Source of the DNA: Liolophura sinensis | Taxonomy: Eukaryota > Mollusca > Polyplacophora > Chitonida > Chitonidae | Length of the DNA stretch: 64,000 nucleotides | Assembly: GCF_032854445.1 (NCBI RefSeq) | Contig: NC_088295.1 | Location: 18,463,385 to 18,527,384, forward strand | Direction: 5' to 3' | Shown: positions 1-51,011 of the stretch, one piece after another | How positions within the stretch are numbered: position 1 is the first letter of the stretch | Layout: each line of letters opens with the position of its first letter | Made by a program: the position numbers and the translations under genes | Notes under the pieces: model-generated | Seen by the model: only the letters and a program-made list of their open reading frames with translations | The model's database searches: none | Told to the model about the DNA's origin: nothing

Positions 1-40
<40 letters not shown>

Positions 41-51
41 TATATATATAT
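1..51. repeat. (AT)n microsatellite
   Basis: Almost uninterrupted AT dinucleotides with one phase slip near position 33. The repeat probably continues beyond the left edge of the window. Confidence 0.95.
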
Positions 52-629
52 TCGGCTTAAGTAACAAAATATCGAATTACTTTTGACTTTTGTAAAATAC
101 ATGTTAATAACGAGAATTTTTGTGCTAGTGTAAGGTTAGTAAGAAGAGATGTGTTATGTGTATGTTAGAACAGACTGATACTTAAATCAGACGTAGCCTT
201 GGTGTAAATGTAATGGTATGAGCAAGGATCCGTCTGCTATAATGAGTGACCCGAATCCCTCTTATAGAGACAGCAGTTCAGACATCTAAGATACCTCTTA
301 TTGGTAGTCTGATCTTATTGGGATTCCCCTGATTGTCGGCATGAGCTGGGAAACTTCACACTGGGACATGACATGATACCTGTGATGCGGAATTTGGGGG
401 ATCCTTTGAATAGGGCAAGAGTTGGGATACTTCCTATTGGGGCATAAAGGGATCCTTTTTATTAGAGACACGAACTGAGATGCCTCTGGATTGGGACATG
501 TTGAAATCATTCTTACTGGGGGCAGAGGTTAGAATCGAGTTAGATAACTGGCAGCATGAGTTTTTCCAATTAGAGGCATGAGCTTGAGTACCACTGATGG
601 AGTTTGGACCCTTCAGACTTTGGATAAGA
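52..629. repeat. Degenerate left flank of the 85-bp satellite
   Basis: From about 230 onward, words such as GGGATACC, GACATGAG and TTGGGG recur irregularly, as in the satellite that follows but too diverged for a fixed period. I read this as the decayed edge of the array. Nothing gene-like is visible, and bases 52-230 hold nothing I can name. Confidence 0.5.
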
Positions 630-3600
630 ACAGGTATCTCATGTTATGGGGATGTAAAGTGGGATACCACTGTTTGGGGGACAGGAGTTTGAACCCTTCC
701 CACCGAGGATATGAGTTAGTATCTCATGTTATGGGGATGTAAGGTAGGATACCTCTGTTTGGGGGACAGGAGTTCGAACCCTTCCCACTGAGGATATGAG
801 TTAGTATCTCATGTTTTGGAGATGTAAGGTGGGAAACCACTGTTTGGGGGACAGGAGTTTGAACCCTTCCCACTGAGGATATGAGTTAGTATCTCATGTT
901 ATGGGGATGTAAGGTGGGAAACCACTGTTTGGGGGACAGGAGTTTGAACCCTTCCCACTGAGGATATGAGTTAGTATCTCATGTTATGGGGATATAAGGT
1001 AGGATACCACTGACTGGGGGACAGGAATTTGAACCCTTCCCACTGAGGATATGAGTTAGTATCTCATTTTTTGGGGATGTAAGGTAGGATACCACTGACT
1101 GGGTTACAGGAGTTTGGACCCTTCAGACTGAGGATAAGAGTTGGTATATCATGTTATGGGGATGTAAGGTAGGATACCACTGTTTGAGGGACAGGAATTT
1201 GGACTCTTCCCACCGAGGATATGAGTTAGTATCTCATGTTATGGGGATGTAAGGTAGGATACCACTGTTTGGGGGACAGGAGTTTGAACCCTTCCCACTG
1301 AGGATATGAGTTGGTATATCATGTTATGGGGGTATAAGGTGGGATACAACTGACTGGGGACAGGAGTTTGGACCCTTCCCACTGAGGATATGAGTTAGTA
1401 TCTCATGTTATGGGGATGTAAGGTAGGATACCACTGTTTGAGGGACAGGAGTTTGAACCCTTCCCACCGAGGATATGAGTTAGTATCTCATGTTATGGGG
1501 ATGTAAGGTAGGATACCTCTGTTTGGGGGACAGGAGTTCGAACCCTTCCCACTGAGGATATGAGTTAGTATCTCATGTTTTGGGGATGTAAGGTAGGATA
1601 CCACTGTTTGAGGAACAGGAGTTTGAACCCTTCCCACTGAGGATATGAGTTAGTATCTCATGTTATGGGGATGTAAGGTAGGATACCTCTGTTTGGGGGA
1701 CAGGAGTTTGAACCCTTCCCACTGAGGATATAAGATAGTATCTCATGTTATGGGGATGTAAGGTAGGATACCACTGTTTGAGGAACAGGAGTTTGAACCC
1801 TTGCCACTGAGGATATGAGTTAGTATCTCATGTTATGGGGATGTAAGGTAGGATACCACTGTTTGAGGGACAAGAATTTGGACTCTTCCCACCGAGGATA
1901 TGAGTTAATATCTCATGTTATGGGGATGTAAGGTAGGATACCACTGTTTGGGGGACAGGAGTTTGAACCCTTCCCACTGAGGATATGAGTTGGTATATCA
2001 TGTTATGGGGGTATAAGGTGAGATACAACTGACTGGGGACAGGAGTTTGGACCCTTCCCACTGAGGATATGAGTTAGTATCTCATGTTATGGGGATGTAA
2101 GGTAGGATACCACTGTTTGAGGGACAGGAGTTCGAACCCTTCCCACTGAGGATATGAGTTAGTATATCATGTTATGGGGATGTAAGGTGAGAAACCACTG
2201 TTTGGGGGACAGGAGTTTGAACCCTTCCCACTGAGGATATGAGTTAGTATCTCATGTTATGGGGATGTAAGGTAGGATACCTCTGTTTGGGGGACAGGAG
2301 TTCGAACCCTTCCCACTGAGGATATGAGTTAGTATCTCATGTTTTGGGGATGTAAGGTAGGATACCACTGTTTGAGGAACAGGAGTTTGAACCCTTCCCA
2401 CTGAGGATATGGGTTAGTATCTCATGTTATGGGGATGTAAGGTAGGATACCTCTGTTTGGGGGACAGGAGTTTGAACCCTTCCCACTGAGGATATAAGAT
2501 AGTATCTCATGTTATGGGGATGTAAGGTAGGATACCACTGTTTGAGGAACAGGAGTTTGAACCCTTCCCACTGAGGATATGAGTTAGTATCTCATGTTTT
2601 GGGGATGTAAGGTAGGATACCTCTGTTTGGGGGACAGGAGTTTGAACCCTTCCGGCTGAGGATATAAGATAGTATCTCATGTTATGGGGATGTAAGGTAG
2701 GATACCACTGACTGGGGGACAGGAGTTTGGACCCTTCCCACCGAGGATATGAGTTAGTATCTCATGTTATGGGGATGTAAGGTAGGATACCACTGTTTGA
2801 GGGACAGGAATTTGGACTCTTCCCACCGAGGATATGAGTTAGTATCTCATGTTATGGGGATGTAAGGTAGGATACCACTGTTTGGGGGACAGGAGTTTGA
2901 ACCCTCCCCACTGAGGATATGAGTTGGTATATCATGTTATGGGGGTATAAGGTGGGATACAACTGACTGGGGACAGGAGTTTGGACCCTTCCCACTGAGG
3001 ATATGAGTTAGTATCTCATGTTATGGGGATGTAAGGTAGGATACCACTGTTTGAGGGACAGGAGTTTGAACCCTTCCCACTGAGGATATGAGTTGGTATC
3101 TCATGTTATGGGGGTATAAGGTGGGATACAACTGACTGGGGACAGGGGTTTGGACCCTTCCGACTGAGGATATGAGTTATGGGGATGTAAGGTAGGATGC
3201 CACTGACTGGGGGACAGGAGTTTGGACCCTTCCCACTGAGTATATGAGTTGGTATCTTATGTTATGGGGATATAAGGTAGGATACCACTGTTTGAGGGAC
3301 AGGAGTTCGAACCCTTCCCACTGAGGATATGAGTTAGTATCTCATGTTATGTGGATGTAAGGTAGGATACCACTGTTTGGGGGACAGGAGTTTGAATCCT
3401 TCCCACTGAGGATATGAGTTAGTATCTCATGTTATGGGGATGTAAGGTAGGATGCCACTGACTGGGGACAGGAGTTTGGACCCTTCCGACTGAGGATATG
3501 AGTTGGTATATCATGTTATGGGGGTATAAGGTGGGATACAACTGACTGGGGACAGGATTTTAGAACCTTCCGACTGAGGATATGAGTTGGTATATCATGT

Positions 3601-3630
3601 TATGGGGGTATAAGGTGGGATACCTCTGTT
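630..3630. repeat. 85-bp tandem satellite, about 35 copies
   Basis: A unit of about 85 bp repeats head to tail. Landmarks in each unit are GAGGATATGAGTTAGTATCT, CATGTTATGGGGATGTAAGG and GACAGGAGTTTGAACCCTTC. Successive GAGGATATGAG words begin at 705 and 790, which fixes the period. Variants alternate (GTTTGGGGGAC, GTTTGAGGGAC, GACTGGGGGAC), and blocks of variants recur, suggesting amplification in multi-unit steps. A few units are shortened, for example near 3170. Stops in all frames argue against coding. Confidence 0.95.
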
Positions 3631-4515
3631 GAGCGCAGATCCTTTTTAATTTGGGAGTGGGAAATGTTAAGCATCACTCTTAGTATGAGTTCTAAATGGT
3701 AGTTCTAGGCTTCAAAACAGATATACGTTTACCAAATGTCAACCAAAGTCGACGTTCCGACTCAATAATGGCAAGACCAATTCCCTAACATAACCACCAA
3801 AAGCTAAGAAAGAAACATAAAGTAATAAATCAGGACGGATTCCTGTTAAATCAGGACGTATTCATACTAAATCAGGACGGATTCATGCAAGAAACAACAA
3901 CGGTTTTCAGTGATATGAAAAAAGACAAGGAATGTTCTAGGCGAGTGAATGAAATCAGTATCTAAATGGTGTACCATGCTAGTTGATAAATGGGCGCTAA
4001 TCAAAACTTATATATCAGTTGCGCTTAAAATGCGCCTTTTCATAGAACTAACTTAACGGCCAAATTCAACATGACGATTACGGCCCCTATTCAAGGGTTA
4101 AGTGGGAGAGTTATACTCATTATAAAACTTTAAAAGGTTAGAGTAAAGGAGTTTGATGGAACATTCTTGACACACCAGTTTTTGCAGTAATAACTGTTGG
4201 CGTTGTTTGAAGTCGTCATTTTACACTGAAAAATCTAGCAAATGCTACAAGGCGAGATATGTATACTCCAAATGCAGAACCGTTGGGTATACTATCCAAA
4301 CAGGATAATGTACAATGTCAAAATTGAAACTATTCCGAAGAAACAGTTTTAGTCTTTGGTGCGCCTTCTGAAGAGTCCTTAATTTTCACTAAACCCAGCA
4401 AATGTGGATGGATATATGGGGTGAATGGGTTTTTTATAGCTAGTAGATCTTCAATTTACCGTTTAGTGAATGAGAACGATCGAGTCTGACGAAGATTACT
4501 CTTAATAATTTCTGT
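3631..4515. other. Non-coding stretch with a small triplicate repeat
   Basis: Between 3826 and 3884 the word TAAATCAGGACGGATTC occurs three times at 21-bp spacing; the middle copy reads GTATTC. Nothing else in the stretch looks like a gene or a known element. Confidence 0.6.
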
Positions 4516-4740
4516 ATATTGTCCCATTCATTTGTGGCCTGGGGTCCTAGATGGCGGAAAGAGTTGCAGTTTCATGCACCAGGTGCCACGAGATGGGATC
4601 CTTCCAGCATGGGACTATATATTGGGAGCATGAGCTGGGATTTTTGCAACTGGGAAGGCTGCGTTTTTAAACCAAAATCAAAACAGAGAAATTTAAAGCC
4701 ACCTTTACCTATTCTTCATCCATACTGTGACTAATTCAAT
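4516..4740. repeat. Isolated degenerate satellite-like patch
   Basis: Words resembling those at 290-640 (GGGATCCTT, GGGAGCATGAGCTGGGA, GGCCTGGGGTCC) reappear here, beyond the right end of the array. I infer an orphaned, decayed piece of the same repeat. The short open frame across it has no recognisable domain. Confidence 0.4.
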
Positions 4741-6454
4741 TTCCGAACAGACTTGCTTGAAAAAAAATATTTTCCTTATCACTCATCGTATTTCTTGAAG
4801 GGTGAAAAATCTCCGTTACTAAAATATACATTCCTGGCCAGCTTTGATTTGTTCATTTGTCTGCAGAGATATGAATGAATGGGTGCGACAAAAAGCAGCT
4901 AATGCAGATATGGCAAATACGTATTCCACAGCGAGTTGCTGGCGAAAGGCGGTTTTGCCAAGTCCTTGGGGAGCAGCAACACCTCAATTATGCCTTCATT
5001 GAGAGACATGTCTCGGGGGAAGCATTTCTCTACGATTGGCTACATTAGGCTTGCCATGTTCGATTCGCTTCAGCCAGCCATTGATCAGCGAGCTATAGCT
5101 GGCTTAGCGTGAGGCCACGGCGCGCTCGCCTGCTTCCGTCCCCTGGTCTTGGCCGTGCTTTAGCCTGACAATTACCAGCATCGCAACACTAATGTCCCTC
5201 ATTATGGTCTCCTGGCTTCCCCAACGCTTAGACATGTTACATAGACTTGACGGGAAATTCGATCAGGTCAGATCAGGCGGGGAAAAAGCAACATGTATTC
5301 ACTCTGCAAAAGGCCTGCAAATAGCCGTAAAGATAATTTTCTCACTCGATGCTGTGTTTTTTTTTCTTTACTACACATTGATAGAGAGAATTAATTTTTT
5401 TTAAGTTTGTCAACGTAGAAACTATTTACACTAACCATTGACTGATCAACACGGCTTGGTACCCCACACTAACTCTTCACTGGACAGCTCAGTGAGACAT
5501 TCGTGAGTGACCACTGGACATCCGATCGCACTCTAATACAGCTTTTAACTTGGAGAGTCTCAGCAGCATCTGTTCATTTCTCAACAAGCTGTTATGACCA
5601 ACTCGATGGGGCGAACTAGGGACAAGGTTTGCCCTACAACATCCAGCTAATATATCAAGCATATTATCTTTTAATTCATTACCTTTCGAGAACATTCAAA
5701 GTATTATATTATAACAGTCATTCTGAGCAATAATGGGAGCAAATACGCTCAATGTTTTTCACATTCTAATCAAGTTTATTAATTTCCTTCGTTGAACAGA
5801 GAGCTTTCAAGCGTATATGGGATTACGTGTGACTTCCTGTTTGGCTAGGCATTTCATAACCACTATATCTGGGAGAAGCCCAGTGAGCCGAGAATCTGGC
5901 GTAGGTGCAAGGCATTCCTTGAAGCCTTTATCGGAAAATATTTAATGAAGCTGTACCCCATCAATTAATCATTCTTTCTTCTGAACACAATGTCCCATTT
6001 GTGGTTAAGGGAGAAAAACCGCCTTGATATGATTTGTAAGAGAGACTGTATCTATAATGAAAACATTCAGGCAAACAAATTGATTCGGAAATTTTGTTCT
6101 GGGTTTCCTGTGATAAATAATCATTTGTTTTGTGGTTTGTGTAACAGCCAACCTCGGCTGCAGCATAGGCATGTTTATGATTGTGAATCTGAATACCGAG
6201 AGATGAATTGTATACAACAGAAAACTGTGCGCAAAAAATGATGCAAAATCTCATGGGAATGGGATAGGATAGGATAGGCTAGAAAAAGCGATTACATGGT
6301 TGCACGCATCAATCAATACACTGGTCAGTAAAACTAACATAATTATAGAATACAAAGATTTTCTGTAAGAGTCTCCAGGGCCTGTAACTGTGCTACATAA
6401 CTATTTAGCACTGCTTACACATTTAGGTATCGAAAATACCAATGAGATATTACG
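4741..6454. other. Non-coding stretch, no gene recognised
   Basis: Bases 5040-5200 are richer in G and C than their surroundings. Short frames lie on both strands between 5960 and 6250 and overlap each other, which is what chance frames do. A GGATA pentanucleotide run occurs at about 6260-6280. I see no domain, RNA gene or element boundary. Confidence 0.5.
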
Positions 6455-6700
6455 ACCAACACACCTGAGAACACGATATTCGGAAACAGAGTGCGGGTGT
6501 AGCACAAACAGGGTCTTGTGTGCAGGAAAAACAAATGGAGTTTTGTCTGACCAACAGACCTGAGAACACGATATTCTAAAATATCTGTATGCAGGGTTTT
6601 ATAGTGTGCAGGAAAAACAAACAGGGTTTGTGTGTAGGAAAAACAAACAGGGTTTGTGTGTAGGAAAAACAAACAGGGTTTTGTGTGTCTTGTCTCATAT
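6455..6700. repeat. Short tandem repeat of about 26 bp
   Basis: The block GTAGGAAAAACAAACAGGGT recurs at about 26-bp spacing from 6608 to 6690, with an earlier diverged copy near 6520. A second word, GAGAACACGATATTC, occurs at 6469 and 6561. The array lies downstream, in transcript orientation, of the choline transporter exon and next to its splice-donor array. Confidence 0.8.
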
Positions 6701-6756
6701 TTCCAAATATGAGAACACCATTAAAATCAGCCAAACGTTCAAACTGAGGTTGTGGA

Positions 6757-7438
6757 CGCCCCGATGGTGAGGATGGCGTTATGAACCACACTCACCTGTC
6801 ATCGTGAACACTCCGACCATCATCCCGATGGTGAGGATGGCGTTATGAACCACACTCACCTGTCATCGTGATTACATCGACCATCAGCCTGATGTTGAAG
6901 ATGGCGTTATGAACCACACTCACCTGTCATTGTGAACACTCCGACCATCATCCCGATGGTGAGGATGGCTTTATAAACAACACTCACCTGTCATCGTGAA
7001 CACTCCGACCATCAGCCCGATGTTGAGGATGGCTTTATGAACCACACTCATCTGTCATCGTGATTACACCGACCATCAGCCCGATGTTGAGGATGGCGTT
7101 ATGAACCACATTCACCTGTCATCGTGAACACTCCGACCATCAGCCCGATGGTGAGGACGGCTTTATGAACCACACTCACCTTTCATCGTAAATACTCCCA
7201 CCACTTTTTCTGATGTCCAGAATGATGTTCTCAGCCACACTCACCTGTCATCGTGAACACTCCGACCATCAGCCCGATGTGGTGAGGACGGCGTTATGTA
7301 CCACACTCACCTGTCATCGTGATTACATCGACCATCATCTCGATGTTGAGGATGGCGTTATGAACCACACTCACCTGTCATCGTGATTACATCGACCATC
7401 ATCTCGATGTTGAGGATGGCGTTATGAACCACACTCAC
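6757..7438 (-). repeat. 64-bp tandem array made of an exon end plus its splice donor
   Basis: Read on the minus strand, each unit carries the last 37 bases of the adjacent choline transporter exon, the donor junction ATGACAG|GTGAG, and about 27 bases of intron ending CATAACGCCATCCTC. The + strand donor words start at 6791, 6855, 6919, 6983, 7047, 7111, 7175, 7240, 7306 and 7370; the true exon's word is at 7434. The period is 64 bp, with two spacings of 65-66. Nine of the ten extra copies keep the GT; the copy at 7047 has AT. Two subtypes differ in the exon-derived part: one codes like MVGVFTMT, as the true exon does, and the other like MVDVITMT. Confidence 0.9.
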
Positions 7439-7613
7439 CTGTCATCGTGAACACTCCGACCATCAGCCCGATGTTCCGGCCGGCTAGCATCACCTCCTCG
7501 CTGTCAGCATTCTTCTCGCTGCTCTTGGACTTCCTGGAAGCCCAGATACCAACAGCCAGGATGAGTAGGTAAAACACAACAATGGCGATGACGCCAGGCA
7601 CGTGCACTGTCAT
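7439..7613 (-). CDS. SLC5A7: High-affinity choline transporter, first coding exon (partial gene)
   Basis: This sodium-coupled choline transporter (CHT1, SLC5 family) would bring choline into cholinergic nerve endings for acetylcholine synthesis. The visible exon codes for the N-terminus. It starts [18 protein letters not shown], which gives the short extracellular end and most of transmembrane helix 1. A cytosolic stretch rich in Lys, Ser and Glu follows, then [14 protein letters not shown] at the start of helix 2. This order matches the known family start, where the next residues would be the TWVGGGYINGT motif. The start codon has a good context (ACC before ATG). The exon ends in phase 1 at ATGACAG|GTGAG, with GT at 7437-7438. 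No later exon can be found between 1 and 6700, so the rest must lie beyond the left edge or be missing. Identification is strong for the exon and unproven for the whole gene. Confidence 0.85.
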
Positions 7614-7769
7614 GGTGATTCCGTCTGCCTCTTGTCACTCAAACTCCAATTCTGTGTGAAACAACGTAGGCTTAATGAATACTATGTTATTTCAAGATAA
7701 TCAGTTGCACATAAAATATGAATTTTGCACCTCCAGTGACACATAAATGCCTCACTATATATATATACA

Positions 7770-7831
7770 TATATATGGTTCACATTTTTTTTAATTGAGT
7801 GAATATATATATGAATGAATATGAATATGAA

Positions 7832-7882
<51 letters not shown>

Positions 7883-8022
7883 ATTCATATCTGCTAAGTC
7901 AAATTTCCCCTCAATTAAAAAAAATGTGAAACAACAAAAATTCATTTTGATGGTTCACATCACAGCTGCTATTCATATCTGCTAAGTCAAATTTCCCCCA
8001 ATTAAAAAAAATGTGAACCATC
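7770..8022. repeat. Inverted and direct repeats around an (AT)n tract
   Basis: The word TGGTTCACATTTTTTTTAAT at 7776 reappears inverted at about 7912-7930 and 8000-8018. The block starting ATTCATATCTGCTAAGTC is directly repeated at 7883 and 7971. A pure (AT)n run of about 40 bp lies at 7834-7874. The layout resembles a foldback or MITE-like element opened by a microsatellite, but no clear target duplication is visible. Confidence 0.7.
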
Positions 8023-11000
8023 AAAAAAGAACAATCGTTCGTGTTTTGGAAGAGAGGAAGAAGTGAGTTCACTTATCATCTGTATTAGCGGTGCATTAGT
8101 CTACAGAACCCTCACAAGGCTTGGGGTTTAATTAAACGTTAAGGCAAACCATACCAAGCTGCTATTGTTCTTTATTTATTCTATTTGCGGACTGTGTAAA
8201 CAGCTAACAAAGTTGCGATGATGTGGCGGCGGGCTGGTCGTTTCCACGGCCTTAACTTCATTTGGAGCTGAAGTTTTCCTGTTATCCCTACAAACCAGCA
8301 TTCCAATCACCGAGATTAAATTTGCCGAGCCCGCCGAAGCACTGACAGTCCTTAATGTTGTAGAGTATAAATTTGCCCGACTATTGGGCCTGTACAGTGA
8401 CTGAGAGCGTCGGGCCGGGGATTGGGTAGAATAATTGGCGGGGTTTATCTGCTGAGAAGGCGTTATGAGCAGAGGTCTCCCTTTCAATCAGGAACAGCCT
8501 CCGTGGACAACATGTAAACACTTAAACAATCCACCTTAAATTAATTAGACGATACTTGGAAGTAAGAAAAAATAAACGTTAATCCTTAACTGTTGTGAAC
8601 AGCGCCACAACGTGACTGCTTAAAAAAGATTTTAACTGCGAAAGTAGGCATCATCAAACCGAGTAGACAGTAATTTCTTACGAAACAGATAGCAATGGTC
8701 GTTTCAACTATTTGCGTCATCTCGCCGTGACCTTCAGAGAGAGTTAGGTATACCTCATTACTGCTTATTATCCCGGTTAACTTTAAGCCAACTCTTTGAT
8801 CAGTGACCACTTATATTTAAATAACCCCAATCAGGAAGCGTGAAAAGTTTCATCAATCAATACATATCATTACTTAACAGAACCTTGACCTTTGATTGGA
8901 ACTCTGCTAGTGTGCTTCTGTCTCCCCCTGGGTAGCTGGACAGACGCAAGTTGCATGCTCTGTGAATGGAAGCGAACCACAATTGTGCATATCATAAACT
9001 GGCAAATTCACAGCCACGCACACTTTCGACCCACAGCATTAAACTATCACAGCTAAAAAAGAGGCAATTATTTGTTTGATTTCAAACATATAAAATATGT
9101 ATAATTCCAACACACAGACGAAAAGGTTCCTGCCTATAGGCCTGTCCATTGCCTTGATATATATATACTAAATTGGCACATATTATTTCATCAATTTTAT
9201 CAACACTACAGACGGTATATACATGCACAATCTATTTCCACGGTAAGACTTAAGCTGAATTTAGACGTTCTACAGGAATATAGCGAACTCTGACTGTTAC
9301 ACTCGAGCAATAACGTTGGGAATACCATCAGCGTTTGTACAGTTAAAAATATGCTTGTGGAAACAATCAGCGCGTTTACTGCTCTGTGATTGGCAATCAG
9401 TCACAGGGTTCGTTGAAACTGGTGTGACCAAATCGTGCGCACTGTAGCATTGGACCGATAGTTTAATTCTTCACTATACAAAGTATGTTTTGTCTGAAAG
9501 GTTCATCAGTGAGACTATTCTTGGATGTTAACCAAGATTGCCCCATATCAGACGTAACCAACATCCAGTTATAAAAGTGTACCATGAATATTTGATAAAC
9601 TTAGTAAAGCGGCTCACAGAGAGAAGGCACTAAAACACGCAAAGCTCAGGCAGAACATTGCACTGGGAACGTTTATCGACCTGTGTCACAGCATCCTCAG
9701 GGAATAGCCGGGTGTCCTTTCAAAGTTGACATATCTATTTTTTTTTTACAGTATGCTCCTTAGGCTACTCGCCTATAGAGGTATTCATATTTAGTGCCTC
9801 GGGTATCTCATACACAACTTATCTGGTATTTGTTTTCCGCCGCCTTACTTCAGTTAACTAAACGTACAGTAATTAAAATTGTCGTAATCCGAGATAGATT
9901 GTCGTGACAATATTTTCAAAAGAGAACGATTTCGTTGGCAAAGTACCATGCGAGTAAATATTTGTCAAATATTATTTTATGGTTGCGAACTCTTCAAGTT
10001 TAACGCCAAACGGCTCGTTATGTTTTACAAGAAAATAAAATGGCGGCGGTCACAACAATGTTGAGGGCCAGGATAAAATATTATTCACGTGTTGTACTTC
10101 GCTTCCATATTTTTAAGCGTATTAACCATTAAGCATAGCAATGCAATACATACAATTAAATTGGAAACGTTATTGAACTCCTGTATCAGTTACCAATAAA
10201 TTTTGCATTTTGTAATTTTAGTATACTACTTTTCAATATGTCTCACCAGGTTCTTATGAAATTCCCTTTATTCAATGAAGCAGGTCGTAGCTTAACTTTG
10301 AACATGTGACATTATTTCGTCTGTGCGAAAACATGATTTCGTCTCTTCAACAATTATATACACCTCGGATTTTAAAACTTTAAACTTTAATGGATTGTGC
10401 AGAACATAGAAGACTATCTTTGTTTACCTAGTTATTAGTAAAACAGTAGCAACGATCAGCTTGACTGGAATGAAACTTGATTTATATTTAAACCATAATC
10501 AATGGATTTGTAAACATGTTTTTGTGAGCGATAACAACGACGGTAAAGCTTTACTGTCATCCCATGTGCGTCACAGTATACTTAAAATACAAAAATAAAA
10601 GAATGTAACAACCTTTGTGAGACCATAAATCAGAAAAGACCACTTGAAGATTATCCAGGATATTTTTGAATCACCACTTCAAACCATTTCTTGCCGTCAT
10701 TACAGATAAAATGTATACAAGCCGTAAGCCTTTCTACGTCAAATTTTATTTCTGAGACCACGATCTACGTGGGTTGGATGTCCCATCAGTCGTTGTATGC
10801 CATGTATTATTCATTCTGTTTATCAGTTTATAGCAGAGAACATAATTTACCCAAAATAGCAAGAGAAGCCGAGTTAAGCAGGCTTGTCGCCTATCGTTAC
10901 CTATTCCCTGTATGTAATTGGCCTAGGTTATAAATCCTGTAGCTTCACCAGAATCAGTCTGTCAGGTGAAAATCTATCAGACAATATCTTGCCCTCATCA

Positions 11001-14739: not shown

Positions 14740-17700
14740 TAATAAGCCATGTATGCAGTTCTCTGGTCACATTGTGCTGATCAGTCCTGTGATAAACCAG
14801 ATGTACAGCCCTTTGGTTACATGACCTGATCAGTCCTGTGATAAACCACATGTACAGCCCTCCGGTTACAGTGTCCGGATGAGTCCTGTGCTAAACAACA
14901 TGTACAGCTCTGGTCCCACTATCCTCACCAAATGTTCAGCTCTCTGGTCACATTGTGCTGATCAGTCCTATGATAAACCACATGTACAGCTCTCTGGTCA
15001 CATTGTGCTGATCTATCCTATGATCAACCACATGTGCACCTCTTTGGTCACACAGTCCTGATCAGTCCTATGATAAACCACATGTACAGCTCTCTGGTTA
15101 CATGACCCCATCAGTCCTTTGATAAACCACATGTACAGCTCTCTGGTCACATAACCTGATCAGTCCTGTGATAAACCACGCATATGCCTGCGTCTGGTCA
15201 CACTGTCCGGATCAGTCCTATCATCAACAACATGTACAGCTCTGGTCACATGACGTGATCAGTCCTATGATAAACCACATGTGCAGCTCTCTGATCACAT
15301 GACCTGATCAGTCCTATGATAAACCACATGTACAGCTCTCTGCTTACATGACCTCATCAGTCCATTGATAAACCTGCAGGGGCCTCCGTGGCTCTGGCCA
15401 CACTGTCCGCATCAGTCCTATGATAAACCACATGTACAGCTCTCCGGTCACATGAACTGATCAGTCCTGTGATAAACCACGCATATGCCTGCGTCTGGTC
15501 ACACTGTCCGGATCAGTCCTATCATCAACAACATATACAGCTCTGGTCACATGACGTGATCAGTCCTATGATAAACCACATGTGCAGCTCTCTGGTCACA
15601 TTGTGCTGATCAGTCCTATGATAAACCACATGTACAGCTCTCTGATCACATGACCTGATCAGTCCTATGATAAACCACATGTACAGCTCTCTGCTTACAT
15701 GACCTCATCAGTCCTTTGATAAACCTGCAGGGGCCTCCGTGGCTCTGGCCACACTGTCCGCATCAGTCCTGTGATAAACCACATGTACAGCTCTCCGGTC
15801 ACATGAACTGATCATGAATATGATAAACCACATGTACAGCTCTCTGGTCACATGACTTGATCATGAATATGATAAACCACATGTACACCTCTCTGGCCAC
15901 ACTGTCCGCATCAGCCCTGTGATAAACAACATGTACAGCTCTCTGGTCACACTGTCCGGATCAGTCCTGTAATAAACAACATGTACAGCTCTGGTCACAT
16001 GACCTGATCAGTCCTATGATAAACCACATGTAAAGCTTTGGTCACACTGTCCTCACCAATCCTGTTATAAACCAAGCGTACAGCTCTCTGGTCACATGAC
16101 CTAATCAGTTCTCTGATAAACCACATGGACAGTTTTCTGGTCACATGACCTGATCAGTCCTGTGATAAACCACATGTACAGCTCTGGTCACATGACCTGA
16201 TCAGTCCTGTGATAAACCACATGTACAGCTCTGGTCACATGACCTGATCAGTCCGATGATAAACCACATGTACAGCTCTCTGGTTACATGACCTGATCAG
16301 TCCTGTGATAAACCACATGTACAGCTCTGGTCACATGACCTGATCAGTCATATGATAAACCGCATGTACAGCTCTCTGGTCACATGACCTCATCAGTCCT
16401 ATGATAAACCACATGTACAGCTCTCTGGTCACATGACCTGATCAGTCCTGTGATAAACCACATGTACAGCTCTCTGGTCATATGACCTGATCAGTCCTAT
16501 GATAAACCACATGTACAACTCTTTGGTCACATGACCTGATCAGTCCTATGATAAACCACATGTACAACTCTCTGGTCACATGACCTGATCTGTCCTATGA
16601 TAAACCACATGTACAACTCTCTGGTCACTGCTGATCAGTCCTATGATTTTATCTATTTATTTGATTGGTGTTTTACACCGTACTCAAGAATATTTCACTT
16701 ATACGACGGTGGCCAGCATTATGGTGGGTGGAAACAGGGCACTGCCGGGGGAAACCCACGACCATCCGCAGACCTATGATAAACCACATGTACAGCTATC
16801 TGGTCACAAGACCTGATCATTCCTATGATAAACCAAATGTACAGCTATCTGGTCACATGACCTGATCAGTCCTATGATAAACCACATGTACAGCTCTGGT
16901 CACACTGTCCGGATCAGTCCTATAATAAACAACATGTACAGCTCTCTGGTCACAGTTTCCGAATTAGTCCTGTGAGAAACCACATGTACAGCTCTGGTCA
17001 CATGACCTGATCAGTCCTATTACAAACCACATGTACAGCTCTCTGGTCACATTGTGATGATCAGTCCTATGATAAACCACATGTACAGCTGCTGATGAAT
17101 CCTTTGATAAACCACATGTACAGCTCTGTGGTCACATGACCTAAACAGTCCTGTGATAAACCACATGTACAACTCTCTGGTCACGTTGTGCTGATCAGCC
17201 CTATGATAAACCACATGTAGAGCTCTGGTCACATGACCTGATCAGTCCTATGATAAACCACATGTACAGCTCTCTGGTCACATGACCTGATCACTCCTAT
17301 GATAAACCACATGTACAGCTCTCTGGTCACATGACCTGATCAGTCCTATGATAAACCACATGTACAGCTCTTTGATCACATGACCTGATCAGTCCTATGG
17401 TAAACCACATGTACAGCTTTGGTCACACTGTCCGGATCAGTCCTATAATAAACAACATGTACAACTCTCTGGTCACACTTTCCGAATTAGTCCTGTGGGA
17501 AACCCCATGTACAGTGGACACATGACCTGAACAGTCCTATGATCAACCACATGAACAACTCTCTGGTCACATTGTGCTGATCAGTCCTATGATAAACCAC
17601 ATGTTTATCTCTGGTCACATAACCTGAACAGTCCTATGATCAACCACATGTACAGCTCTCTGGTCACATTGTGCTGATCAGTCCTATGATAAACCACATG

Positions 17701-18840
17701 TTTATCTCTGGTCACATAACCTGATCAGTCCTGTGATAAACCACGCGTACAGCTCTGGTCACACTGTCCGGATCAGTCCTATCATCAACAACATGTACAG
17801 CTCTGGTCACATGACGTGATCAGTCCTATTATCAACCACATGTGCAGCTCTCTGGTCACATGACCTGATCCCTCCTATGATAAACCACATGTACAGCTCT
17901 CTGGTCACATGACCTGATCAGTCCTATGATAAACCACATGTACAGCTCTCTGGTCATATGACCTGATCAGTACTATGATAAACCACATGTACAGCTCTCT
18001 GGTCACATGACCTGATCACTCCTATGATGAACCACATGTACAGCTCTCTGGTCACATAACCTGATCAGTCCTGTGATAAACCACATGTACAGCTCTCTGG
18101 TTACATGATCTGATCAGTCCTGTGATAAACCACATGTACAGCCCTCCGGTTACAGTATCCGGATGAGTCCTGTAACCTGTACAGCTCTGGTCCCATAATC
18201 CTCACCAAATGTTCAGCTCTCTGGTCACATTGTGCTGATCAGCCCTGTGATAAACCACATGTAGAGCTCTGGTCACATGACCTGATCAGTCCTGTTATAA
18301 ACCACGCGTACATCTCTCTGGTCACATGACCTGATCAGTCCTGTGATAAAATACATGTACAACTCTCTGGCCACATGACCTGATCAGTCCTGTGATAAAC
18401 CACATGTACAGCTCCGATCACATGACTTGATCAGTCCTATGATAAGCCACATGTACAACTCTGGTCACATGACCGAATCAGTCGTATGATCAACCACATG
18501 TGCAGCTCTTTGGTCACACTGTCCTGATCAGTCCTATGATAAACCACATGTAGAACTCTCTGGTCACATGACCTGACCGGTCCTGTGATAAACCACATGT
18601 ACAACTCTCTGGTCACATTGTGCTGATCAGTCCTATGATAAACCACATGTACAACTCTCTGGTCACATGACCTGACCGGTCCTGTGATAAACCACATGTA
18701 CAGCTCTCTGGTCACATTGTGCTGATCAGTCCTATGATAAACCACATGTACAACTCTCTGGTCACATGACCTGACCGGTCCTGTGATAAACCACATGTAC
18801 AGCTCTCTGGTCACATTGTGCTGATCAGTCCTATGATAAT
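14740..18840. repeat. 49-bp tandem satellite, about 80 copies with higher-order structure
   Basis: The unit of about 49 bp (some 45-46 bp) contains TCCTATGATAAACCACATGT, ACAGCTCTCTGGTCACATGA and CCTGATCAG. Length variants lack one TCT. Multi-unit blocks recur: CCACGCATATGCCTGCG occurs at about 15178 and 15479, and GGGGCCTCCGTGGCTC at 15379 and 15730. Both are amplified with their neighbours. Frames running through the array on the minus strand are by-products of the repeat. The array is interrupted by a SINE at 16648-16772. Confidence 0.95.
16648..16772 (-). mobile_element. 5'-truncated SINE inserted in the satellite
   Basis: This is a reversed SINE tail and body (ATTTGATTGGTGTTTTACAC, then GGCCAGCATTATGG). 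It is flanked by the direct repeat CCTATGAT at 16640-16647 and 16773-16780, which is the target-site duplication. The duplicated sequence is part of the satellite unit, so the SINE inserted after the array existed. Confidence 0.9.
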
Positions 18841-22894: not shown

Positions 22895-23760
22895 ACAGAG
22901 GCAGGTATATACATCTCATCCACACAGTTCATCTACAAACAGAACCATGTGACAACATGTCCACACATCTCATCCACACAGTTCATCTACAAACAGAACC
23001 ATGTGACTACATGTCCACACATCTCATCCACACAGTTCATCTACAAACAGAACCATGTGACTACATGTCCACACATCTCATCCACACAGTTCATCTACAA
23101 ACAGAACCATGTCACTACATGTCCACACATCTTGTCCACACAGTTCATCCACAAACAGGATCTTGTGACTACATGTCCACACATGTCATCTACACAGTTC
23201 ACCTACAAACAGAACCATGTGACTACATGTCCACACATCTCATCCACACAGTTCACCTAAAAACAGAACCATGTGACTACATGTCCACACATCTCATCCA
23301 CGCAGTTTATCTACAAACAGAACCATGTGACTACATGTCCATACATCTCATCCACGCAGTTTATCTACAAACAGAACCATGCGACTACATGTCCACACAT
23401 CTCATCCACACAGCTCATCTACCAACAGAACCATGCGACTACATGTCCACACATCTTATTCACACAGCTCATCTACAAACAGAACCATGTGACTACATGT
23501 CCACACATGACATCCACACAGTTCATCTACAAACAGAACCATGTGACTACATGTCCACACATCTCATTCACACAGCTCATCTACAAACAGAACCATGTGA
23601 CTACATGTCCACACATCTCATCCAAACAGTTCATCTACAAACAGAACCATGTGACTACATGTCCACACATCTCATCCACACAGTTCATCTATAAACAGAA
23701 CCATGTGACTACATGTCCACCCATCTCACCCACACAGTTCACTCACAAAACAGGACTATG
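22895..23760. repeat. 54-bp minisatellite, 16 copies
   Basis: The unit is 54 bp with CTCATCCACACAGTTCATCT, ACAAACAGAACCATGTGACT and ACATGTCCACACAT in order. Copies begin about every 54 bp from 22915 to 23725. Because 54 is a multiple of three, long frames stay open by construction, one of 321 codons. At least two frames are open at once, so openness is not evidence of coding. Confidence 0.95.
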
Positions 23761-24390
23761 TGACTTTATTATGAGCAAAGCTTTGTGGATTCATTTCCAT
23801 ACAGTATGTAACACCATGGACATTGGTATTTTCCTAAATTTCCAAACAAACAACTTCATACACGAATCTCAATATGAGCCCAGTCATAAAATAGGCTCAC
23901 AACCCACATCGCCATACTTTTTACGTGCATCTTACAGTATTGGCTGTGCCTACCTTGAAATGCCGTACAACATACATCGTAAAGAGCCTGTGCCCGCATT
24001 TCCAAACAGTTTACGCAATAAACAAGGCCCTGGATTCCTCAATTTCCATGTAAGATGCACGTAAGAAGCATAATCAAACTTTTTCACACATTTTGCATAA
24101 CAAATAAGGTTTTGTGTCCAACTTTCCGTAGATCCTGCATTTTAAACTAATCTCCGTGCCCACCATTATATACATATGGTATAAAAAATAAGGCCCTGTT
24201 CTCATCTTTCCATACATCTTGCATCACGAACTACACTCTGTGTCCACCTTTTGATACATCTTGGGTCATGAACTAGATGCTGTAGCCAAATTTCCATACA
24301 TCTTTCATCATGAACCAGGTGTGATCACCTTTTCACACATCTTGCATCATGCGCAAAGATCTGTGTCTACTCTTTTAAGCTTTGAACAAG
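23761..24390. repeat. Degenerate right flank of the 54-bp minisatellite
   Basis: The words CATACATCTTGCATCATGAAC, CTGTGTCCACCTTTC and close variants recur every 50-60 bp but are much more diverged than the core. I infer an older, unhomogenised edge of the same array. Confidence 0.6.
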
Positions 24391-30814: not shown

Positions 30815-30960
30815 ACTGTTCTCTGATAAGTTAGGCAAAATTCAAATGTTTACTCATCAGCTTTCAGAGAATGATGTCAATTATTTTGTCTGACATTCAT
30901 GGTTCAGTGTGCTTTTTTGGCCCAGCGGGATTCTAGGCTAAATTTGTTGCTAAAGTTATG

Positions 30961-31325
30961 CTAATGTGAATGCCTTGCGCGAAGTGAACAATACTGAACC
31001 GTATTACTTGACTGACGCCGCAGATAAAACATTTTGCGATATTAAGTCTGTTATTGTTAACAGTCCAGGTCTCGCGTTGTTTCATCCAAACCGCGACGTT
31101 ATTGTTGTTACCACCGATGCTAGTGCGTATGGTATTGGTGGAGTCCTTTCTCAAATTGCTCCAGATGGATCCGAGGTTATGGTAGCTTGTGCATCGCGAA
31201 CAATCACTGCCGCAAAACGAAAGTACTCTGTGGGAGAACGCGAAGCCTTAGCCTGTGTATGGGCTATTGAAGTGGCACATGTATCTGCGGGAAAGACATT
31301 TTATTCTTCGAACAAATCACCATAA
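30961..31325 (+). pseudogene. RT thumb / RNase H fragment of the gypsy relic
   Basis: The segment shows the connection from reverse transcriptase to RNase H. It has LALFHPNRDVIVVTTDASAY with the first catalytic RNase H aspartate in TTDAS, then GIGGVLSQ, ASRTITAAKRKYSVGEREAL with the catalytic glutamate, and ACVWAIE. Palm and finger motifs such as YxDD are missing upstream, and the frame ends soon after, so only one domain survives. The order of residues is diagnostic of Ty3/gypsy RNase H rather than LINE or Copia types. Confidence 0.85.
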
Positions 31326-48600: not shown

Positions 48601-51011
48601 CTTTCTCTAATGCATATCTTTCTTCATAGTAGTGCATTTTTTATAATTTTTCATGAAATCAGCCCCTAATTTACTAATTTTCTCAGATCTGTGTAAATGA
48701 TTACCGGTACTTCTGTAAAATGTAGTCAGTGAAATAGCAGTATAAACATTGAAATGATGACCCAAGCTTGTATAAGGCAATGTTACATGAGCAGTGATCA
48801 GCAGAATAATGTAGGTTATCACTCACACAGATTTTTGTCTCACCATTCCTTTCTTGATAAACTTTATATGTTTAATTATTTTATGAATTACATATTTGCT
48901 TAAGTTTCATGTTAAATATTGTATACATATATTTCCAGGTTATCAATGGGTTCATGGCAAGAACTGATTGGGATAAAGCTATTAAAATGCCTCTTGGAGT
49001 TTTACCAGGAGGTTCTGAAATGCCCTGTGTTGTTCCATTAACTACTCAGCTGGGTAAATCAGATACCTATAGATTTACTGTGATTGAAAGTTTTTCTGTT
49101 TTAAATGCTAAACATTACAGAAAATATAGCATTTCCACCTAAAACTTTTAAATTATAGACTTTCAGGCAGTGTCTGCAAAATTTTGACCTAGTATTCAGT
49201 CATGCTGCTTACTGTGTTACTCCAGAGTTATTTACCACTTTCTTACAAGCAGTGATCACATTACGTGGGAATTCAAACCTCAAGACCTCTTTGGTGATGT
49301 TTGACAAGTAACGTTAGTAGTTCTGTACTGTTGTATTATTCCATGGTGGTAGTTTTTAAAAAATGTCTTTCCCTTTTTTTCCTTTTCTAGTGAACCAATG
49401 ACTGAAAATATCGTTCTGCATTCCACATTCATTCTGATAAAACACAGAGTACTCCCTATGGATCTTGTCTCTATTGAGACACCCAAAGAAAAGGTGTACT
49501 CTTTTTTATCCACATGTATTGGCTTTATTGCTGATGTGGATTATGAGAGTGAAAAATACAGAAGTCTTGGTGGTGCTAGATTCACACTGGGTGCGCTAAA
49601 ACGAATTATGGGTAAGTGGGATGGTCTTCAGGATGACAGGAGTGAGGGAGACAATGCCTATCTGAACCTTTTATGAAGGATAACAATTCACAAAGACAGT
49701 ATTTTCGAGATAGGTTAATTTATGTACACACCAAACACCGAACAGAAACGTTTTTGAGTGGAGTGTTCTGGGCTAGCGATCTTTGAGCATTTTTTAGTGG
49801 AGAAAAACACCCATAAAGCTTTATACATAAGTGCTCAAAGAGTGAAACATCTTTGACTTCAGCTGATTAATTATTTGTTTATATTGCTCTGCGACTGTCT
49901 GTAGCTTAAGTGTGGAAGTATTATACGCTATCTGAAAGATCTACGCACCAAGTGAAAACTCTTTTTTATTTTACTTTTGAAGTGATGAACTGTTGTATTT
50001 TTCGTTTGTATCTTTCTCCTGGTAGCTCAAAAATGAACATGTTACACCCTACATAAGTATTGCACTCAAGTGATTTGTTGAATGCAGATTTTCTGTTTTG
50101 CCTTGTTCCTAGGACTGAAGACCTACAGGATGAGAGTTTCCTACCTCCCTATAGCAGAATATGAACAAAGTCAGCCCAATGGCCAGCCTGCTGGAGAGAA
50201 GGTGCTAAGAAAAATCAGGAGTTTTTCACTGAAAAGTAAAACAGATAGTTTAAATGCCATTGATTCGAATGGGGTGATTGGGCCAGACATGGTGGGCGAC
50301 AAACTACGATCATACTCTGTCCCAGGTGAAGGGCTAGAGGGTCTGCAGGATCTACAGGCAGGGAAAGAATCAGAGGTTGGTAGTAGAGACAGGAGCCAGT
50401 CTGAACACAATACCATTAACCTTCAGACTGAGGAGCAACTGTTCTCTAGTCTGCTACAGGATAGTCCAGGTACTGAAAGTCAGACAGAGGATTCTGGGGA
50501 CATGAAACCTGGCGATGTACCTCAGGCAAAGATGAGTGCTTCTGAGGATAGTCTCTTCAGTGATAACGGCATCATCCGGGAGAATGTGACTGCTGTGAAG
50601 ACAGGCGACGCTCCAGTCCCCACCCCACTTGTTCCGCCTCTATCTGAGCCTGTCCCAGACAACTGGGTGACGGTGGAGGACGAGTTTATTACAGTAGCAG
50701 CCGTGTATCAGAGTCACCTGTCTAATGACTGTATGATGGCCCCACAGGGGCGCCTCAGTGAGGGCTTTGTGTACCTGACATTATTGAGGAAGGCCGGGGT
50801 GACACGGGGCACCTTGCTCAATCTCTTCTCCTCCATGGCAGAAGGAGCTCATGTGGACTCTCCCCATGTGGAGACCATTAGGGCTCTGGCGTTCCGTATA
50901 GAGCCCCTTTGTAAGGAAGGTGTCATAATGGTGGATGGAGAGATGATAGAGTTTGGGCCCCTCCAGGGACATATACTGCCCCAGCTGGCCAGAATCCTGG
51001 CCATTCGATGA
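45274..51011 (+). CDS. SPHK: Sphingosine kinase (SPHK1/2 family), six exons, one frame break
   Basis: The product would phosphorylate sphingosine to sphingosine-1-phosphate, a lipid signal, using ATP. Coding exons are 45274-45681 (or to 45724), 46181-46330, 47009-47103, 48939-49053, 49391-49611 and 50113-51011. Domains in order are an N-terminal lipid kinase module, then LKVLVNPHSGPGKALQIF, the first strand and loop of the DAGK catalytic fold. Then come SGDGLVYE with the catalytic aspartate, VINGFMARTDW and the glycine-rich motif. CIGFIADVDYESEKYRSLGG and a long acidic insert lie before a conserved C-terminal half (PDNWVTVEDEFITV to VDGEMIEFGPLQGH). The implied length of about 630-640 residues is closer to vertebrate SPHK2 than to SPHK1. 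In exon 4 one base is missing inside GSGNAL, so the deposited sequence shifts frame and stops early in exon 5. The phases of exons 4 and 5 fit only the unshifted frame. Confidence 0.93.
46181..46330 (+). CDS. SPHK: Sphingosine kinase exon 2
   Basis: Acceptor TTTCTGTAG. Codes for GKLKVLVNPHSGPGKALQIF and QKQVIPMLDEAEIKYDLITT, the start of the catalytic fold. Ends in phase 1 at ACAACAG|GTGAGT. Confidence 0.93.
47009..47103 (+). CDS. SPHK: Sphingosine kinase exon 3
   Basis: Acceptor TTTTAACAG. Codes for EYAGHAKDLVGTMDLSECYA, then VVIVSGDGLVYE with the catalytic Asp in SGDG. The motif has Tyr where vertebrates have His. Ends in phase 0 at GAG|GTGAAC. Confidence 0.92.
47299..48376. mobile_element. 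1.08-kb inverted-repeat element in sphingosine kinase intron 3
   Basis: The ends are CCCTTACAA and TTGTAAGGG, each flanked by TA, the target duplication expected of Tc1/mariner-like transposition. Complementarity continues more loosely inside. Words like GAGGTGTA and TACACCTC recur throughout in both orientations (GAGGTGTACACCTCA, GTGAGGTATAGATGAGGTGT and others), so the interior is a dense field of small inverted repeats. No transposase frame is present. Confidence 0.75.
48939..49053 (+). CDS. SPHK: Sphingosine kinase exon 4, with a one-base deletion
   Basis: Acceptor ATTTCCAG. Codes for VINGFMARTDWDKAIKMPLG, then VLPGGS. After that TCTGAAATGCCCTG stands where family logic requires TCTGGAAATGCCCTG (Ser-Gly-Asn-Ala-Leu). 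Read in the shifted frame, the remaining bases give INYSAG and end in phase 2 at GCTGG|GTAAAT, which matches exon 5. Confidence 0.9.
49391..49611 (+). CDS. SPHK: Sphingosine kinase exon 5
   Basis: Acceptor CCTTTTCTAG. Codes for EPMTENIVLHSTFILIKHRV, then LPMDLVSIET, CIGFIADVDYESEKYRSLGG and ARFTLGALKRIMG. Enters in phase 2 and ends in phase 1 at ATGG|GTAAGT. Confidence 0.93.
50113..51011 (+). CDS. SPHK: Sphingosine kinase exon 6 (terminal)
   Basis: Acceptor TTGTTCCTAG. Codes for LKTYRMRVSYLPIAEY, then about 170 residues rich in Ser, Glu, Asp and Gly with no known fold (the SPHK2-like insert), then SEPVPDNWVTVEDEFITVAA, SHLSNDCMMAPQGRLSEGFV and the C-terminal strands. TGA at 51009-51011. Confidence 0.95.

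Follow-up and report, generated by a model that had tools for sequence, protein, structure and literature searches.

The window analysed here is a 64-kb stretch at C1:18463385-18527384 of a 609-Mb genome (C1 is a 96.4-Mb contig). On its minus strand it carries the first exon of a CHT1 (SLC5A7-like) choline-transporter gene, referred to as gene A, in which the exon end and its splice donor are followed by ten further tandem copies. The reading favoured for this arrangement, with a probability of roughly 0.68, is that a minisatellite born by slippage lies on the exon 1 junction, that the exon-proximal donor wins, that the copies are passengers and that the locus is one case of a recurrent kind.

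Gene A and its 64-bp donor array

The exon at 7613-7439 matched CHT1 residues 1-59 over 58 codons (PDB 8j74, E 7.4e-14). The remaining CHT1 exons lie past the start of the window; 50 kb of adjoining sequence was taken, the exons were located by tblastn and they were then joined. Assembled from the true donor (donor 0) to exon 2, gene A produced an intact CHT1 of 583 aa from eight coding exons, with full-length homology and an intact frame (PDB 9bfi E 6.1e-203, Pfam SSF 1.8e-36). The junction of donor 0 with exon 2 reads FTMT-ATWVGGAYING as in the conserved protein, and this joining of the exons showed that the conserved CHT1 protein would require the first donor.

TRF and the unit table confirmed the claim of the sequence-only reading that ten extra units with exon end, junction and intron start lie directly past the true donor. 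The array of 716 bp (6760-7475, period 64, 11.1 copies, score 1020) overlaps the genuine exon end in sense orientation, with its edge at 7475 within the CHT1 exon and on the same strand. Each of the ten copies consists of the last 36-37 exon bases and the first 27-28 intron bases, spaced 64-66 bp. The first intron bases of the donors are at 7438 (true), 7374, 7310, 7244, 7179, 7115, 7051, 6987, 6923, 6859 and 6795, and the spacings in this order are 64, 64, 66, 65, 64, 64, 64, 64, 64 and 64 bp. GT was kept in nine of the ten copies (10 of 11 units), as had been claimed, the exception being 7051 with AT. Every one of the 11 junctions ends in AG, 10 of them being AG/GT. Eight of the 11 donor nine-mers were CAG/GTGAGT, and the others were AAG/GTGAGT, CAG/GTGAAT and CAG/ATGAGT. 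The earlier notion of many competing donors after exon-like sequence was supported, with seven of the ten copies identical to the true donor over the nine-mer and equal to it in predicted U1 pairing, all eight at -14.6 kcal/mol. The predicted pairing is weaker in copies 4 (-12.6), 5 (-8.9) and 6 (-7.9), the last being the dead donor.

The two coding subtypes described by the sequence-only reading were present, MVGVFTMT in the exon and copies 3, 5, 7, 8 and 10 and MVDVITMT in copies 1, 2 and 9, but this division was incomplete: copy 6 carries the intermediate MVGVITMT, and copy 4 is an outlier (VVGVFTMK) in which 15 of 36 exon-like bases differ from the exon. The jumbled order of the subtypes along the array suggests exchange between units. 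The stretch from donor 3 to donor 4 (7180-7244) holds the 15/36 exon-like changes of copy 4 and 8/28 intron-like changes in copy 3, far above the neighbouring units. Paralogue B and the rest of the 114 kb yielded just short weak second matches to this stretch, and a derivation from either was rejected. With the array as query, the 609-Mb genome gave one match, the array itself, in a search that skipped very common words and so leaves uniqueness unproven.

Table 1. Features of gene A in the window and of the six other exon-end arrays (named by locus)
Feature	Position	Strand	Evidence and remarks
CHT1 exon 1, coding part	7439..7613	minus	58 codons plus one base (phase 1); PDB 8j74/9bfi, E 7e-14; joins exon 2
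Putative 5' UTR part of CHT1 exon 1	7614..7651	minus	Possible acceptor TTTCACACAG precedes; by sequence reading
True splice donor CAG/GTGAGT	7433..7441 (first intron base 7438)	minus	Conserved FTMT-ATWVGGAYING with exon 2; same intron position in paralogue B
Intron 1, window part	1..7438	minus	Full length 8,923 nt; exon 2 lies 1.5 kb past the start of the window
64-bp tandem array, exon end plus ten further copies	6760..7475	minus	TRF and unit table; 5' edge within CHT1 exon
Exon copy of the 7-bp seed CATCGGG	7467..7473	minus	Sequence; its start precedes the exon end by 35 bases
Intron copy of the seed CATCGGG	6760..6766	minus	Sequence; at the array end
Outlier stretch, donor 3 to donor 4	7180..7244	minus	Pairwise table; donor 4 still AAG/GTGAGT
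Lost donor of copy 6 (CAG/ATGAGT)	7046..7054	minus	Same copy has the intermediate coding variant MVGVITMT
In-frame TAA met when the first donor is skipped	7422..7424	minus	Translation FTMTGECGS, then stop
L045, ankyrin			Pfam 1e-10; exon-end donor array
L046, antistasin	2467-4000	plus	Pfam 4e-8; exon-end array, 81-bp unit
L050, DUF3535			Pfam 6.6e-6, 26.1 bits, just below the 26.2-bit cut-off; no PDB match
L055, iron-only hydrogenase C-terminal domain	3544-7319	plus	Pfam 3e-13; exon end copied 94 times, 40-bp unit
L056, DNA-PKcs CC5	3822-4343	plus	Pfam 5e-16; PDB DNA-PKcs 6e-13; six-copy 83-bp array
L057, DNA ligase C-terminal region			Pfam 2e-8; exon-end donor array

Origin of the array and choice among its donors

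The minisatellite would have arisen when a segment spanning the boundary of exon 1 and intron 1 was duplicated in tandem in an intact choline-transporter gene. CATCGGG is present at both array edges, which fits a first duplication seeded by a 7-bp direct repeat with a 64-base spacing. That duplication was probably slippage or unequal exchange between the exon CATCGGG and the intron CATCGGG 64 bases on. Among the explanations offered by the sequence-only reading, a by-product of replication slippage was the best supported. A second tandem choline-transporter gene, paralogue B (L012/L013; 584 aa, eight coding exons, minus strand), is located some 32 to 44 kb ahead of window base 1, in the same direction as gene A and starting about 39 kb farther along. 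An intron of paralogue B occupies exactly the matching position (ATGACAG/GTTAGT) without a donor array, and TRF found one repeat (35 bp x 3.1) in this intron of 5.6 kb. Since the intron position is shared with a paralogue that has no array, the intron is older than the repeat and the array is secondary.

Tandem repeats with a period of at least 10 made up 10.3% of the 114 kb around the gene (25 merged arrays), and one of the eight coding exons of gene A, exon 1, overlapped an array. The same CHT1 intron contains an 85-bp minisatellite at window 599-3630 (30-36 copies, TRF). Other minisatellites of the window have units of 49 bp (about 81 copies, 14942-18839) and 54 bp (about 16 copies, 22911-23765); the latter leaves open a 334-aa frame whose sole Pfam match, Leader_CPA1 (0.00016), is probably a repeat effect. 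AT-rich repeats just upstream of the exon (about 7770-8030) include inverted copies of a CTCAATTAAAAAAAATGTGAA-like stretch and resemble, by eye, a small mobile element. A retrotransposon reverse-transcriptase RNase H fragment was found at 30954-31325 on the plus strand (Pfam RT_RNaseH_2 3.6e-23). Two open frames had Pfam domains, YegS_C at 50082-51011 (plus), which we take to be sphingosine-kinase-like, and GST_N_4 at 61588-61923 (minus), presumably resembling failed-axon-connections proteins.

Splicing would commit to the exon-proximal donor, since donor 0 is made first and closes the only normal-sized exon, and the ten copies would be passengers removed with intron 1. With the putative acceptor AG at 7653-7652, the exon would measure 213 nt with donor 0 against 277-856 nt with later donors. 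The sequence-only reading had expected a distal donor to break the frame usually; instead, with every later donor the first intron bases stay in the message and the same in-frame TAA (7424-7422) is met after five residues, however many units are retained. A slip to a later donor would give one identical truncated product of 63 residues, or a message cleared by nonsense-mediated decay.

No selection on the donor bases was detected within the array, where 3 of 9 sites varied in the donor nine-mer against 32 of 55 in the rest of the unit (p=0.28), nor when the odd halves of copies 3 and 4 were removed (3/9 against 15/55, p=0.70). Across the seven exon-end arrays described below, the donor window ranked from 0.17 to 0.97 among all 9-column windows and gave no signal; the lowest value belongs to L050, whose row was shifted by one column and whose dinucleotide count was dropped. 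The unique changes in the copied exon ends showed no protein constraint either: they comprised 8 of 23 possible synonymous, 11 of 75 possible non-synonymous and 0 of 1 possible stop changes (p=0.096), or 3 synonymous and 6 non-synonymous without the outlier halves (p=0.45). Predicted local accessibility placed the true donor at rank 2/11 and 3/11 in two settings (0.0121 and 0.0153; copies 0.0007-0.0203). An RNA structure masking the copies and sparing the true donor was rejected, as these accessibilities overlap.

The weak acceptor context of the unit AGs and the donor bases, which do not stand out in variability, favour the reading of the copies as passengers. Counting against it are that use of the first donor is deduced from the protein, that predicted accessibility fails to single out the true donor and that, by analogy, IFI6 is reported to use two downstream units besides the first. 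In addition, Reed and Maniatis in 1986, and also Eperon and colleagues, reportedly found that the intron-proximal site is often preferred among duplicated 5' splice sites in vitro; such a preference would predict use of the last copy and also counts against passenger copies.

The array could be an expression brake, with distal donors used at a real rate and the shared stop letting copy number set the fraction of CHT1 messages destroyed. The seven copies that match the true donor exactly, the one stop common to all distal products and the downstream repeat donors reportedly used in IFI6 would fit a brake, but it is unlikely given donor bases without detected selection, a paralogue B without an array and similar arrays in functionally unrelated genes, DNA-PKcs and DNA ligase among them. 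The expression tuning or U1 decoy suggested by the sequence-only reading was likewise unsupported, the variability of the donor nine-mer being no different from that of the rest of the unit. Holding of U1 snRNP by the copies near the start of a long intron, as a guard against premature polyadenylation or a stimulus to transcription, is less credible still and we give it very little weight: the 8.9-kb intron, which contains three copies each of AATAAA and ATTAAA, does have at its head ten additional sites with predicted U1 pairing, weak in two of them, but the 5.6-kb intron of paralogue B manages without an array and conservation of the donor bases was not detected.

Recursive removal is somewhat less remote than such U1 holding, although we regard it as very unlikely. 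Each unit is a 64-nt GT...AG segment with AG/GT at both ends, and copy-to-copy splicing would regenerate a donor and correct a wrong choice to the same mRNA. The junctions, 11/11 ending in AG and 10/11 being AG/GT, agree with this, and two sources report human recursive sites at AG/GT exon ends (PMC10156609) and a Drosophila recursive exon defined by a downstream donor (PMC8605326). The units resemble the ratchet points of these sources in the juxtaposed AG/GT with a further donor after it, and differ from them in a weak pyrimidine tract and ten tandem copies. The pyrimidine fraction before the unit AG was 0.38-0.44, below the 0.56-0.94 of all 14 acceptors in genes A and B and short of what a ratchet-point acceptor would have; moreover, 83% of the 474 AGs scored in intron 1 were equal to or better than the unit AGs, and the units in a presumed LIG1-like gene are mostly CTG/GTGAGT, without AG. 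An assembly artefact is the least credible explanation and extremely improbable: tandem arrays are prone to mis-assembly and the copy number comes from the assembly alone, but the copies differ among themselves, the array occupies merely 716 bp within a 96-Mb contig and similar arrays were present at many places in the genome.

Comparison with known repeat and intron-gain systems

Zhuo et al. in 2007 reportedly dealt with human introns derived from tandem arrays, a closely related theme. The human IFI6 (6-16) minisatellite, also a tandem repeat in which each unit has a donor consensus, is the nearest precedent. The IFI6 repeat unit is 12 bp, whereas the CHT1 unit is 64 bp with 36-37 exon bases, and its later donors would bring a stop. 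Two downstream repeat units of IFI6 are reported to serve as donors, with three mRNAs as the result (PMC4526556).

Intron gain by tandem AGGT duplication has been described under the Rogers model, for ATP2A1 and with 24-bp repeats in fission yeast (PMC4974935), and Drosophila cases of intron gain by tandem duplication have been reported (PMC2891723). The CHT1 tandem copies likewise span AG/GT and give GT...AG segments, but the CHT1 intron pre-existed, as its position in paralogue B indicates, and the copies lie inside the intron in a weak acceptor context. The array is thus not a new intron in formerly exonic sequence. According to De Grassi and Ciccarelli 2009 (PMC2812944), tandem repeats at exon-intron boundaries of human segmental-duplication genes give rise to novel introns. 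The CHT1 minisatellite is similar in its place at an exon-intron boundary and in its potential to alter splicing, and different in that the exon length is kept and the repeats lengthen an existing intron.

Exon-end donor arrays elsewhere in the genome

The genome was searched for a pattern of three MAGGTRAGT at array-like spacing, and the first matches in coordinate order, up to C1:18.47 Mb, were followed up. Among these matches, 15 tandem-donor arrays, the CHT1 array included, were present in C1:0.8-18.5 Mb after merging, and seven of the 15 (CHT1 included) start at, or at most 30 nt from, a coding exon end. For the 14 other arrays, the sequence before each first donor was read and exons were called by Pfam. 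The six other exon-end arrays (Table 1) had 6 to 94 units, and the array edge was within the exon in five of them; the exception was L057, where the array starts about 28 bases past the true donor and the unit is nearly without exon. We take L050 to be a BTAF1-like gene and L055 a CIAO3/NARF-like gene, while L057 is presumably LIG1-like. A coding exon end was not shown at L047 (no Pfam match) or, by reading frame, at L048, L049, L051, L052, L053, L054 and L058. The L053 array starts about 100 nt after an apparent exon end, and L049 and L051 adjoin what reads as a SINE tail.

By consensus, the downstream donors at least as strong as the first numbered 9 in L045, 16 in L046, 3 in L050, 67 in L055, 4 in L056, 29 in L057 and 8 in CHT1, and those of L055 reach 3.7 kb downstream. 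In all seven exon-end arrays the best intronic copy at least equalled the true donor in consensus strength, and two of the arrays had copies stronger than the first donor (nine in L046, five in L057). GT was kept in 142 of the 176 units of six arrays (L050 left out, its columns being shifted by one); L055 had GT in 69 of 94 units and CT instead in 23. The following exon was found for CHT1, PRKDC and LIG1, and the first donor was protein-correct in all three, the next exon lying about 110 nt after the array in PRKDC (L056) and about 0.5 kb after it in LIG1 (L057), in frame with the first donor in both. The DNA-PKcs intron of L056, about 560 nt long, consists mostly of the six-copy 83-bp array. 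A search for the following exon of L055 by the pattern C[ILVM]NGG gave none in the 2.6 kb after the array. For L045, L046, L050 and L055 the homology extends to the first donor, and the full reading frame was checked for CHT1 alone among the array genes. If use of the first donor is real and the copies are equally strong, position or exon context, not strength, must decide. Read-through past the first donor met a stop after 1-14 codons in six of the seven arrays; in L045 and L055 this stop is just past the first unit, and use of the second donor would shift the frame and not meet the stop.

Genome-wide, MAGGTRAGT triplets numbered 1,546 against 328 for the pattern read backwards and CAGGTGAGT triplets 678 against 65 reversed, while AAGGTAAGT triplets showed no enrichment (77 against 69). 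MAGTGRAGT, a scrambled motif with identical composition, had 592 triplets and its own reversal 644; all such match counts are inflated by long arrays, for example L055 with 94 units. Counted as arrays among the listed matches of C1:0.8-18.5 Mb, the donor motif gave 15 and the scrambled motif 3 (p=0.0075), but correction for single-motif numbers (15 against 9) changed this to p=0.087 (Fisher 0.18). The single motifs (15 donor, 8 reversed and 9 scrambled) were counted in 186 kb outside arrays, a rough guide as this sequence was chosen partly for arrays. The controls conflict, and an excess of such arrays over the neutral expectation is unsettled. Going by the rough single-motif counts, real donors may make up roughly half of these motifs. 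Seeding without preference would then place arrays at exon ends about as often as was seen (7 of 15), and we claim no hot-spot. Read cautiously, minisatellites arise widely in the genome, splice junctions included, and those on junctions are tolerated; this tolerance suggests exon-proximal choice among equals.

Titles and abstracts of the literature searched, with partial coverage, held no genome-wide class of exon-end donor arrays. We propose tentatively, at slightly less than even odds, such a class: minisatellites of up to 94 units that repeatedly arise on the 5' splice junctions of conserved genes, with a strict exon-proximal-first rule if the genes still work, and with some cases, such as antistasin, that could nurse new exons. 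A single array such as that of CHT1 has a precedent in human IFI6, and it is the recurrence across genes that would surprise a specialist. Choice among equal 5' splice sites is an old question, usually tackled by artificial constructs of few sites, and the intact CHT1 gene, with eleven tandem junctions and eight identical nine-mers, offers a natural test of it. An exon-proximal-first rule, if true, would be the opposite of the intron-proximal preference reportedly seen in vitro. RNA from one animal would reveal the rule of donor choice directly, for CHT1 and the six other genes.

Finally, the unit length was divisible by three in the antistasin array (81) and the BTAF1 array (66). The 81-bp unit of the antistasin array can be read in frame through some ten units until the first stop, and its copies might be coding; this exon end could represent the birth of a repeat-domain exon.
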